A DNA stretch of 53,763 nucleotides. Origin: Deltaproteobacteria bacterium. GTDB lineage: Bacteria > Desulfobacterota > Desulfuromonadia > Geobacterales > Pseudopelobacteraceae. Each line of letters begins with the position of its first letter. The first letter of the stretch is position 1. The position numbers and the translations under genes are program-made. The stretch covers positions 1 through 53,763 of the forward strand of contig JAJYCS010000006.1 of the NCBI GenBank assembly GCA_021778115.1, in the 5' to 3' direction. This document shows positions 10,493-15,050 of this stretch, in pieces. Under the pieces are notes generated by a model. The model was not told the DNA's origin. It worked only from the letters and a program-made list of their open reading frames with translations, and did no database searches.

Positions 10493-10921
10493 TCAGTGGT
10501 TCACCGCAGGGCCATCAGCAGGGGGAAAGAGGGGCTGTTTCTTCCGGTAGACCGTCCCCTGAAAACTGGCGATGAGGTCTCCCTGGTCATCGGTCACCTG
10601 AACCAGATAGGTGCCTAGTCGCGGGTTGCGCGCCAGTTCTCGGGCCTCGGCGTACAGCCTGCCCTGGGTTGGCGCCTTGACAAAGGCGACGCTGGTGTTG
10701 ATCCCCATGGCCAGGGTTCCGTGGGAGTTGGAGGCCACGGCAAAGGCGAAATCGGCCAGGGTAAAGATGGCGCCGCCATGGACGGTATGGGCGCCGTTTA
10801 GGTGGTGCGGCTCGATCTCCATCGCCACCCGGGCGCGGCCGGTCTCCGCCTCCAGGAGTTCGATGCCGCAGTGGCGGGCAAAGCGGTCGTTGTCGGCAAA
10901 GAACCGTTTGATCTCCTCCAT
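10493..10921 (-). CDS. PaaI-family hotdog thioesterase
   Basis: 142 residues, single hotdog domain. The family hallmark HTVHGGAIFTLADFAFAVASNS (HGG-x3-LAD) is at residues ~45-66, and EIEPHHLNGA precedes it. PaaI-type enzymes hydrolyse phenylacetyl- or other acyl-CoA thioesters. The physiological acyl group cannot be told here. ATG at 10921 follows GAGGGG. It lies 15 bp downstream of the aminotransferase gene on the same strand, so it may share its transcript and its attenuator. Confidence 0.88.
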   Translation of the reverse strand: MEEIKRFFADNDRFARHCGIELLEAETGRARVAMEIEPHHLNGAHTVHGGAIFTLADFAFAVASNSHGTLAMGINTSVAFVKAPTQGRLYAEARELARNPRLGTYLVQVTDDQGDLIASFQGTVYRKKQPLFPPADGPAVNH

Positions 10922-10936: not shown

Positions 10937-12241
10937 TCAGGACCGGATGTACGCCTTGATCGTGGCGGCCAGGGTCTGGTAGATCCGTTCCGTCTCGGCG
11001 GGGTTCCGTTCCAGCAGGGTCACCCGGAACCCCTGCAGTTCGGTGGCGAAGGAAGAGAGCGGCACCGTGCAGATGCCGGTGGCGGCCAGGGTGTAGTAGA
11101 CGAACCGCTTGTCCGGTGAGACGCCGGGCTGGTTGACCAGCGATTCCACCAGGTCCCGTACCTCCCGGTTCTCGATCGGCAGGGTCTGGCTGCCGTTCAA
11201 GACGCCGTCTCTGAAGGCCACCGCCATGTAAAAGGCGCCGTTGGTCCGGTTCACCAGCAACTCCGGCACCTCCTTCAGATAATTGTAGGTGATGTTGCTG
11301 GCCCGTTCGTAGAGGCTGATCCGTTCCTGCAGGTAGACCTGGTAGCGGGGGTGCTGCATGATGGCCGGGATCACGGTCTGGGGCAGGGTGGTGGAGCAGA
11401 CCTCGTTCATCTTGGCGGTGAGGATCAGATTGATGTACTTGCGGAACTGGTCGTCCGCGTGGCCGTTGTAGACCTCGATCCAGCCGCAGCGGGAACCGGG
11501 CCAGGGGAACTCCTTGGAGATCCCTTTCAGGGAGATGGCCGGCACGTCGCCGATCACGGCGCTGATCGGCACGGTGGTTTCACCGTTGTAGACGATGTTG
11601 TTATAGACCTCGTCGCAGATGATGAACAGGCCGAACTCCCGGGCGATGGCGACGATCTGTTGCAAGGTCTCCCTGTTGTAGACCATGCCGGTGGGGTTGT
11701 CCGGATTGATGATCATGATGGCGCAGATACCGGGGTTGTCCGCCACTTGTCGCCGCAATTCATCCATATCCGGATGCCAGCCTTGTTCCGGCTGCAAGCG
11801 AAAGTGCAGCGCCGGTCCATGGGCATGGCCGATCTCCCCCAGGGTGTGGGTGGTGTAGGAGGGGGAGGGCATCAGTACCCGCGCCTGGGGTTGCAGGCAG
11901 CCGTAGATCTTGGCGATGGCGTCACCCAGGCCGTTGAAGAAGATGATGTCTTCCGGGGTGATCTGGGCGCCGCCCCGCTGGTTGGTGGTCGCGCAGATGA
12001 ACTCGCGGGTCTTGAGCACACCGCGGGTGTGGCAGTAGCCCCAGGTGTCGTTGTCATGGACGGCAGCGGCAACGATCTCCTTCATCCAGTCCGGGATCTG
12101 CTCCCCCTTGACGATCGGATCGCCGATGTTCTCCCAGTTGATGGTGACGCCGCATCTCTGCAGCTTCTCCGCCACGTTGACGATGTTGCGGATCTCGTAG
12201 GTCAGTTCACCACTGCCGGGTTGGACCAGGTTGACGCGCAT
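10937..12241 (-). CDS. Class I/II PLP-dependent aminotransferase (candidate alanine aminotransferase)
   Basis: 434 residues from ATG 12241 (AGAGAGG ten bases upstream). Two further in-frame ATGs, at 12262 and 12280, lack an RBS. Fold-type I features: WGYCHTRGVLKTREFI, the cofactor-ring segment MPSPSYTTHTLGE, NPDNPTGMVYN, CDEVYNNIVY, and the PLP lysine in SLKGISKEFPWPGSRCGW. The motif order resembles AlaA/AspC-type enzymes. Substrate is inferred, not seen: the leader upstream encodes eleven Ala codons ahead of an attenuator-like hairpin, which would fit an enzyme making alanine from pyruvate. An aspartate or aromatic aminotransferase remains possible. Confidence 0.88.
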   Translation of the reverse strand: MRVNLVQPGSGELTYEIRNIVNVAEKLQRCGVTINWENIGDPIVKGEQIPDWMKEIVAAAVHDNDTWGYCHTRGVLKTREFICATTNQRGGAQITPEDIIFFNGLGDAIAKIYGCLQPQARVLMPSPSYTTHTLGEIGHAHGPALHFRLQPEQGWHPDMDELRRQVADNPGICAIMIINPDNPTGMVYNRETLQQIVAIAREFGLFIICDEVYNNIVYNGETTVPISAVIGDVPAISLKGISKEFPWPGSRCGWIEVYNGHADDQFRKYINLILTAKMNEVCSTTLPQTVIPAIMQHPRYQVYLQERISLYERASNITYNYLKEVPELLVNRTNGAFYMAVAFRDGVLNGSQTLPIENREVRDLVESLVNQPGVSPDKRFVYYTLAATGICTVPLSSFATELQGFRVTLLERNPAETERIYQTLAATIKAYIRS

Positions 12242-12285
12242 GGGTTCGGATTCCTCTCTCATGGGTGAATGATACGCCATACATG

Positions 12286-12318
12286 AAAACAGCCGCAGGC
12301 TGCATACCCACGGCTGTT
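12286..12318 (-). terminator. Attenuator-like hairpin in the aminotransferase leader
   Basis: On the minus strand AACAGCCG pairs with CGGCTGTT over a 15-nt loop and runs into TTTTC, 24 nt after the leader-peptide stop and about 45 nt before the structural start codon. Part of its loop and 3' arm, GCCTGCGGC (plus-strand 12292-12300), can instead pair with GCCGCAAGGC inside the leader ORF (12359-12368; nine pairs, one bulged A), a plausible antiterminator. Confidence 0.55.
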
Positions 12319-12341
12319 CGGTCTTTCAGGAACGACAACGA

Positions 12342-12428
12342 TCAGCAGGCAGCAGCAGGCCTTGCGGCGTTACGCGCCGCGGCGGTGGTAGCTCGCGCTG
12401 CTGAGGTGATGATACTCGTCATAGACAT
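12342..12428 (-). CDS. Alanine-rich leader peptide of a putative attenuator
   Basis: 28-codon ORF: residues are M-S-M-T-S-I-I-T-S followed by A-A-R-A-T-T-A-A-A-R-N-A-A-R-P-A-A-A-C. Eleven of the last 19 codons are Ala, using four synonymous codons, so this is not a simple nucleotide repeat. It ends 24 nt before the attenuator hairpin, as classical amino-acid leaders do. No clear Shine-Dalgarno sequence precedes either ATG (12428 or 12422). With the candidate promoter immediately upstream, the mRNA may be leaderless or nearly so. By analogy with Thr, His or Leu leaders, ribosome stalling at scarce Ala-tRNA would favour antitermination. Confidence 0.55.
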   Translation of the reverse strand: MSMTSIITSAARATTAAARNAARPAAAC

Positions 12429-12435
12429 GGTTATA

Positions 12436-12464
12436 TTCGTAGCATACCCCTGAAAGGGCGTCAA
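12436..12464 (-). promoter_or_regulatory. Candidate promoter of the Ala leader-aminotransferase unit
   Basis: Minus strand TTGACG (12464-12459), 17-bp spacer, TACGAA (12441-12436), with an overlapping AT-rich TATAAC next to it. It would start transcription at or within a few bases of the leader ATG at 12428. It overlaps the last bases of the upstream gene. Confidence 0.35.
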
Positions 12465-13069
12465 CGGCTTTGTAAGGGGGCTGATCGGGCCAGGCCGATC
12501 AGGAGGCGGCCGTCGGGGTCGCGCCAGCGAATCCAGCCTGAGCTGGTCCGGTTGTAGAGGACATAGCACCAATCGTCATGGGCGACGATAACCTTCAGCA
12601 TCGTCGTGGCTGTCAATGGGGTGGCGCCCCGTCGTGTGGCCACCGGCTGGGGATACGCCTGGAGGGCCCAGGCCGGTGCGTTGGGCAGAAGATGCAGCAT
12701 CTTTCCTTTGAGAAATCGAGCCCAGGGGGAGAAGTGCCACTGTCGGGTCGGATGTAGCCAGGCCTCCTTGCCCGAATCGTCGCAGGCAACCCGTAGCCAG
12801 CCCTCCTTGTGGGCCGTGACCAGCAGGTACAGGTCGTCATCGCCGCCGAAAAGCCAGCCGGTCAGCTGCCTGACAGCTGCTGGATTGAGTTGGCCATCAC
12901 GTCCCAGACCTGGATCGGCATAGAGCTGAACGGTAAGGTTAGAGCTGCGCGGAGGTATTTGGAGGATGCCAACGCCGCTGTAGGGGCGCATCGGTAGGGT
13001 TGCGACAGCGGGCCGGGGGATGAGGCTAAGCAGGATGACGAGTGGTATCAGCAGGAAAAGAGGGCGCAC
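12461..13069 (-). CDS. Exported SH3-like protein of unknown function
   Basis: 202 residues from GTG 13069, with the N-terminal signal MRPLFLLIPLVILLSLIPRP ending near AVA. The mature part has beta-rich, Trp- and Gly-containing stretches (GWLRVACDDSGKEAWLHPTRQWHFSPW; WCYVLYNRTSSGWIRW) typical of SH3b-type cell-envelope domains, apparently two copies. The start overlaps the 3' end of the WbuC gene by 22 bp, so coupling is likely. It is last in the serS-hemE-VOC-wbuC run. A cell-wall binding role is inferred only. Confidence 0.65.
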   Translation of the reverse strand: MRPLFLLIPLVILLSLIPRPAVATLPMRPYSGVGILQIPPRSSNLTVQLYADPGLGRDGQLNPAAVRQLTGWLFGGDDDLYLLVTAHKEGWLRVACDDSGKEAWLHPTRQWHFSPWARFLKGKMLHLLPNAPAWALQAYPQPVATRRGATPLTATTMLKVIVAHDDWCYVLYNRTSSGWIRWRDPDGRLLIGLARSAPLQSR

Positions 13070-13883: not shown

Positions 13884-14906
13884 TTACCTCTGGGAGAGAC
13901 GATGGACAGACTCGACCATCTGGATGGCGTTTTCAACCGGCACCGTCGGCAGGATGCCGTGGCCCAGGTTGAAGATGTGACCGGGGCGGCCGGCGTTTTC
14001 ATCCAGTACCCGTTTGACCTCTTGCTCGATCACCGCCTGGGGGGCGAACAGGACGGTGGGGTCGAGGTTACCCTGCACCGCCACCTTTGGCCCTAACTGG
14101 TCGCGGGCCGATGCTAGGCTGATGTGCCAATCCAGTCCCATCACGTCGCCGCCGGCCTGCTGCACCATCGGCAGCATGGTGCCGGCACCCTTCACAAAGT
14201 GGATCACCGGAATGTTCTGACGGTTTAAGCCGTTGATCAGCCTGGTGGTGTAGGGCAGGACGAATTTTTGATAATCGCTGGGGGAGAGCACGCCGCCCCA
14301 GGTGTCGAATATCTGGATCGCCTGGGCGCCGGCCTTGATCTGTCCGTTCAGGTATTCCATATCCATCATGGTCACCTTCTCCATCAGGGCGGCGTAGACC
14401 TCCGGTGCGGCGTACATCATCCGCTTGATGGCGGCCCAGTCCTTGGAACCTTTGCCCTCCACCATGTAGCAGGCCAGGGTGAACGGCGCCCCGCCGAAGC
14501 CGATCAGCGGTACCTTGGTGGCCAGCTCGCGGCGCAGGATGCGGATCGTCTCAAGCACATAGGGAACATCGGCCTCGGGATCGGGAATCCGCAGTCGTTC
14601 CACATCGGCCATGGTCCGGACCGGGTTTTCAAAGACCGGGCCGGGGACGAAGTCCAGCTTGAGCCCCATCGGTTCCACCGGGGTCAGGATGTCGGAGAAC
14701 AGGATGGCCGCATCCACCCCCAGGATATCCACCGGCTGGATGGTGACCTCGGCCGCCAGTTCCGGCGTCTTGCACAGCTCCAGGAAGGTACATTTCGAGC
14801 GGACCGTCATGTACTGCGGCAGGTAGCGACCGGCCTGGCGCATCAGCCAGACCGGCGTGCGATCGACCGGTTTTCCCCAACAGGCATCGAGAAAGCGGGT
14901 GTTCAT
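13884..14906 (-). CDS. hemE: Uroporphyrinogen decarboxylase
   Basis: Converts uroporphyrinogen III to coproporphyrinogen III in haem synthesis. The 340-residue protein starts [32 protein letters not shown], the family signature with the substrate-binding Arg residues. Further signatures are [16 protein letters not shown], the catalytic-site Asp in FSDILTP, DTWGG, and the C-terminal [15 protein letters not shown]. An in-frame extension to 15044 reads through the tRNA-Ser gene and is rejected. Downstream of serS and tRNA-Ser on the same strand, and first of the hemE-VOC-wbuC-SH3 run. Confidence 0.97.
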
Positions 14907-14962
14907 GGCGTACCTCGGTGTGATGAAAAACGGCGGGTCGGTGCCCACCGTTTGGGTGATCA

Positions 14963-15050
14963 TGGCGGAGAGAGTGAGATTCGAACTCACGGTACCTTTC
15001 GGTACGCCGGTTTTCAAGACCGGTGCCTTAAACCGCTCGGCCATCTCTCC
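14963..15050 (-). tRNA. tRNA-Ser (anticodon UGA)
   Basis: Class II tRNA of 88 nt on the minus strand: acceptor GGAGAGA pairs with TCTCTCC, anticodon stem CCGGT/ACCGG with the loop CTTGAAA (TGA), variable arm GTACCGAAAGGTAC, T arm GTGAG TTCGAAT CTCAC, discriminator G and an encoded CCA. It sits 30 bp after serS, the synthetase that charges it. Confidence 0.97.

Follow-up and report, generated by a model that had tools for sequence, protein, structure and literature searches.

Does the short, alanine-codon-rich ORF that precedes an aminotransferase gene in the window (the whole stretch of 53,763 nucleotides analysed here) sense the supply of charged alanine tRNA and so control the gene behind it? 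We propose that it belongs to a ribosome-mediated, Ala-tRNA-responsive transcription attenuator of alanine synthesis, a reading to which we assign a probability of about 0.9. The parts of the element are listed in Table 1. The last 19 codons of the 28-codon ORF include 11 Ala codons, among which GCA, GCC, GCG and GCT are all represented, just as an earlier inspection of the letters alone (the sequence-only reading) had described; the terminator that it placed behind the ORF is also present, at a distance of 22 nt and not the 24 nt it gave. The alanine leader is beyond chance expectation: in a control whose scope was the window, 8 of 329 short ATG ORFs (12-45 codons) carry at least 6 Ala codons within 14, and a terminator-like hairpin follows only one of these 8, the alanine leader. 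Folding of the 194-nt leader region, as proposed in the sequence-only reading, gave a stability somewhat above that of shuffled sequences (z -2.0).

Table 1. Features of the alanine leader locus, in order of transcription (positions in the window)
Feature	Position	Strand	Remarks
-35 hexamer TTGACG	12459..12464	-	overlaps stop codon of upstream SH3-domain gene
Extended -10 (TGC TACGAA)	12436..12444	-	17-nt spacer to -35
Alanine leader peptide ORF, MSMTSIITSAARATTAAARNAARPAAAC	12342..12428	-	28 codons, ATG at 12428, stop ends 12342
Arm 1, CAGCAGCG	12396..12403	-	includes first two Ala codons; partner of arm 2 in minimum-energy fold
Rare CGA (Arg) codon, conserved, with initial bases of the Ala codon after it	12391..12395	-	inside Ala run
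Internal GC hairpin, GCCGCGGCG/CGCCGC	12362..12383	-	inside Ala run; in minimum-energy fold and RNAalifold consensus
Arm 2 (antiterminator arm), TGCTGCTGCCTGCTGATCG	12339..12357	-	end of leader ORF
Intrinsic terminator, GAACAGCCGTGGGTATGCAGCCTGCGGCTGTTTT	12286..12319	-	hairpin 12319-12287, then UUUUC
PLP-dependent aminotransferase PRK06855/NF005334, probable alanine aminotransferase	10937..12241	-	
PaaI-like hotdog thioesterase	10493..10921	-	15 nt downstream of aminotransferase

To compare this locus with its relatives, 201 orthologous upstream regions (159 unique) were gathered from the Geobacterales, by named records (Geobacter, Oryzomonas, Geomonas, Geotalea, Pelotalea), from other families of the class and, in the case of nine loci (L072-L080), from mostly Desulfobulbaceae-type records. 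In a first leader set (n=103), ORFs were picked by their Ala content and a following terminator, a selection biased toward alanine. Because of this bias the comparison was repeated blind to alanine: the promoter pattern TTGAC-N17/18-TGnTA was located ahead of the enzyme gene, and the ORF was read from the next start codon. In the Geobacterales this yielded a short ATG ORF at 73 of 73 promoter-bearing loci, 69 of them with at least five Ala codons and the remaining four with exactly four; in the other families of the class, 32 of 33 ORFs had at least five, and a leader was found upstream of the orthologue in most of the genomes sampled. TTGAC itself is present at all 102 leader loci for which a promoter was found. 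Judged by this comparison, the alanine-codon-rich ORF is a real element. The layout of Ala codons followed by a terminator, put forward in the sequence-only reading together with a call for comparison with relatives, thus holds well beyond the window: the ORF is conserved, its Ala codons change synonymously and the stem of its terminator covaries.

The element is not found everywhere. At 39 of the 112 unique loci from the Geobacterales, among them two truncated by contig ends, neither promoter nor leader was detected near the enzyme, so leader control is dispensable or replaced there. At L015 and L040, which belong to these 39, the enzyme gene lies close behind the preceding gene, and the two may share a transcript. 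The leader promoter is also absent from all nine Desulfobulbales-type orthologue loci, and the same leader was accordingly rejected for that group (0/9). Among 97 relative genomes, 40 carry a 23-nt pattern of the leader core, each as a single hit whose distance to the orthologous enzyme gene downstream is in every case 110-240 nt (positions compared by hand); a second regulated gene was rejected, the pattern being found at the aminotransferase only. One genome (G033) has two aminotransferase copies, C8:4969-6270 and C85:3793-5094, with the alanine leader at the C8 copy only. In Geomonas-type loci L063, L065-L068, L136 and L140 the leader is cut down to 21-26 codons with 4-5 consecutive Ala codons (e.g. 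MYTNNVTSRGTVHAAAAARHF), which is a minimal version of the same alanine element.

Selection acts on alanine as an amino acid. No residue of the leaders is enriched over dinucleotide shuffles as strongly as Ala, with 662 codons in the Geobacterales where 268 are expected (z 30) and 351 in the rest of the class where 168 are expected (z 19). The ORFs in these counts were pre-selected on Ala, which affects less the contrast between frames: 55-91 Ala in the other two frames of the same DNA, against 662 and 351 in frame. Codons change while the amino acid is kept, column +4 being GCC or GCA in the Geobacterales and GCG elsewhere, and column +6 GCG in the Geobacterales and GCC elsewhere in the class. 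GCA and GCT are rare in the genes of the window, where they contribute 24 and 15 of 356 Ala codons; in Geobacterales leaders their shares are 34% and 17% (226 and 113 of 662). Around the Ala run, residues and codons drift; the commonest residue at flanking positions mostly reaches 15-40%. These patterns bear on the idea that the region is a riboswitch or other structured RNA whose Ala codons are a by-product of stems built from GCC and GCG, as the GC-rich and partly palindromic stems within the ORF might suggest. Yet the enrichment is confined to one frame, and the stems diverge between orders along with the peptide flanks while the Ala run, the start and the stop are kept. A T-box riboswitch or any other Rfam family was rejected, since no covariance model matched positions 12200-12520 at E values up to 10. 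We regard a structured RNA of this kind as very improbable.

The position of the promoter suggests how translation of the leader begins. In the window the leader ATG lies 7 nt after the -10 hexamer, and in 73 of 73 promoter-bearing Geobacterales loci it lies 6-9 nt after the extended -10, with no Shine-Dalgarno sequence at the ATG in those of the loci that were listed. Transcription usually starts 6-9 nt after a -10 element, and with this spacing the Geobacterales leader transcript is predicted to be leaderless or to carry a 5' UTR of at most about 3 nt. The guess of a leaderless transcript in the sequence-only reading would therefore extend to the Geobacterales relatives. In other families of the class the distance from the -10 to the leader ATG is usually about 20-40 nt and a Shine-Dalgarno-like sequence is mostly present, and leader translation outside the Geobacterales appears to be mostly Shine-Dalgarno-led.

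The terminator stem alone has a predicted energy of -22.1 kcal/mol, and its pairs show compensatory changes over 103 loci (one pair is G-C in 68 and A-T in 34, another A-T in 48 and G-C in 47). In the window, arm 2 can form a duplex of -21.7 kcal/mol with the 5' arm and loop of the terminator. Where the terminator loop has changed in a particular lineage, the complement at the distal end of the leader ORF changes with it, as in L190 (CTTCACTGCC with GGCAGTGAAG), L194 (TTTGCCCAT with ATGGGCAAA) and L200 (TTCTGTCC with GGACAGAA). This was quantified in a swap test, in which each leader end was paired in turn with the terminator 5' half of its own locus and with terminators from other loci, and the duplex energies were double-centred. 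With one locus per genus (31 genera) own pairs were favoured at z -4.7, none of 50,000 permutations being as good, and with 35 class loci at z -5.3; within the Geobacterales alone the signal was weak, at z -2.0 with about 2.6% of permutations doing as well. Arm 2 thus co-varies with the terminator sequence it would pair with, the 5' arm and loop, as predicted for an antiterminator that competes with the terminator. The antiterminator first suggested from the sequence, GCCGCAAGGC with the terminator 3' arm, did not survive the same test: own pairs were not favoured over swapped ones (z -0.23 across 31 genera, +0.47 for the Geobacterales), and this version was rejected. Co-variation of the terminator with the end of the ORF is also hard to reconcile with an ORF that encodes a functional small protein and a hairpin that merely terminates its transcript. 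Conservation of the ORF, with its start and stop, across the class would fit such a protein. Beyond the Ala run, however, conservation of its residues is poor, and it occurs always beside the same enzyme, in one copy per genome, so that we give this explanation hardly any credence.

We modelled the RNA of the window at equilibrium with the part covered by a ribosome removed. In this model a P site at codons 1-5 or 20-29 gives the terminator, and one at codons 6-19, except codon 12, favours the antiterminator; codons 6-19 take in the Ala run over its first two thirds. The model thus predicts antitermination only with a ribosome waiting in or near the Ala run. The leaders as a whole show a smaller switch than the window does, but one that stands above that of shuffled leaders (Geobacterales p 4e-5, class p 0.005). 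A strong equilibrium switch is seen in only some relatives, and the mean terminator probability while stalled is 0.87. In modelled RNA without the terminator 3' arm, the antiterminator forms also with the ribosome near the start, so that the state of the leader without translation is the least certain of the outcomes.

One may therefore propose the following sequence of events. Transcription would begin at the leader AUG or at most about 3 nt from it. When Ala-tRNA is plentiful, the ribosome would pass the Ala codons and cover arm 2, so that the terminator forms and the aminotransferase is not transcribed. When Ala-tRNA is scarce, the ribosome would wait in the Ala run, where arm 1 and the internal hairpin would be masked or melted, and the free arm 2 would pair with the terminator 5' arm and loop, allowing transcription to continue. 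Without translation, arm 1 would pair with arm 2 and the terminator would form.

Is alanine the product of the downstream enzyme? Its likely start is the ATG at 12241, preceded by a Shine-Dalgarno sequence (GAGAGGAA) and downstream of the longest-ORF start at 12280. The protein matches NCBIfam NF005334/PRK06855 at 725 bits; the second-best model, the alanine aminotransferase model PRK08363, scores 192 bits, below its cut-off of 534. PRK06855 has no assigned specificity, and function as an alanine aminotransferase is probable by analogy only, the nearest solved structures by sequence being 1XI9 from Pyrococcus and E. coli AlaA (4CVQ). No alanine dehydrogenase was found in the window's genome, and among the matches listed the next best homologue of the aminotransferase there is 26% identical. 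Analogy with these distant relatives suggests that the enzyme makes alanine, and the Ala-rich leader is itself an argument for alanine as its product. The thioesterase gene behind it is probably co-transcribed with it. Elsewhere in the window, the longest ORF of a uroporphyrinogen decarboxylase gene (13884-15044, minus strand) begins inside a tRNA-Ser(TGA) gene (14966-15050, minus strand); its first ~27 residues are thus translated tRNA, and its real start lies downstream.

The Ala run contains a conserved rare Arg codon. The Arg codon of an Ala-Arg-Ala core is CGA in 58 of 58 Geobacterales leaders and in 21 of 22 other leaders that have the motif; in the genes of the window CGA accounts for 11 of 247 Arg codons (4.5%). 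No conserved complement to it was found in the leader RNA, and an intramolecular helix as the explanation for the conserved CGAGCT was rejected, since only 10 of 90 leaders contain a complement, a lower number than other 6-mers give. In the 30 of 35 tRNA loci that were examined, the tRNA-Arg anticodons are ACG, CCG and TCT, with no TCG among them, so CGA would be read by tRNA-Arg(ACG) through I:A wobble. Decoding by I:A wobble is slow. It is possible, if speculative, that the near-invariant CGA is a programmed slow codon. These same observations would also suit a leader that senses ribosome stalling in general, caused by an antibiotic, an arrest peptide or the slow CGA, the Ala run being a stall-prone stretch and not a gauge of Ala-tRNA charging. 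The peptide around the Ala run, however, is not conserved as arrest peptides are, the many Ala codons are retained with all four kinds in use, and the target gene encodes an aminotransferase whose closest kin are alanine aminotransferases; we consider general stalling unlikely. A broader version of the alanine attenuator, to which we would give only about one chance in four, is class-wide, leaderless in one order and mostly Shine-Dalgarno-led in others, with the slow, invariant CGA acting as a built-in timer that keeps the ribosome in step with RNA polymerase.

If the attenuator operates as proposed, alanine would join the amino acids whose synthesis is under leader-peptide control, in an element conserved across a class of metal-reducing bacteria that is important in the environment. 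Its leaderless and Shine-Dalgarno-led forms would offer a natural comparison of how leader translation begins, and the invariant rare CGA codon is an anomaly specific enough to be tested. Leader codons that report the product of an enzyme could also serve substrate prediction in the PRK06855 aminotransferase family.

The enterobacterial trp, his, thr, leu and phe leaders combine codons for the end product with a mutually exclusive pause hairpin, antiterminator and terminator, and a biosynthetic gene downstream. The alanine leader resembles them in its ORF rich in codons for the probable product, its competing hairpins and the probable biosynthetic gene at its 3' side; unlike them it has Ala codons, an invariant rare CGA within the run and, in the Geobacterales, no Shine-Dalgarno sequence and a predicted leaderless transcript. 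In the open-access literature, our search for an alanine attenuator before an alanine-synthesis gene, or for Geobacter leader peptides, returned nothing direct. The remark in the sequence-only reading that an alanine version is not a standard case stands to this extent, and needs amending in that a response of the mycobacterial whiB7 uORF attenuator to alanine starvation is reported in papers citing the work (Poulton 2024, cited in PMC13236596, PMC11550727). That actinomycete whiB7/wblC attenuator is likewise controlled by a uORF; as described there, it governs a transcription factor, is induced by antibiotics as well, and is not a cis leader of an alanine-synthesis gene. An engineered trpL reporter in which two Ala codons stand in place of the Trp codons functions as an attenuator according to a later description (Osterman 2012, described in PMC5039519); it too is an Ala-codon leader, but an artificial one, built to report translation inhibitors. 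Mycobacterial leaderless polycysteine sORFs, as summarised in citing papers, attenuate a downstream operon (Canestrari 2020, cited in PMC9031893, PMC13236596). They share with the alanine leader, whose transcript is predicted to be leaderless in the Geobacterales, a short ORF with many codons for the amino acid that would be sensed and a proposed attenuation of what lies downstream, and differ in that they concern cysteine in Actinobacteria, the present leader alanine in Geobacter-type bacteria and their class. Each feature of the alanine leader thus has a precedent, whereas their combination, and alanine as the regulated product, appear from the open-access literature searched to be new.
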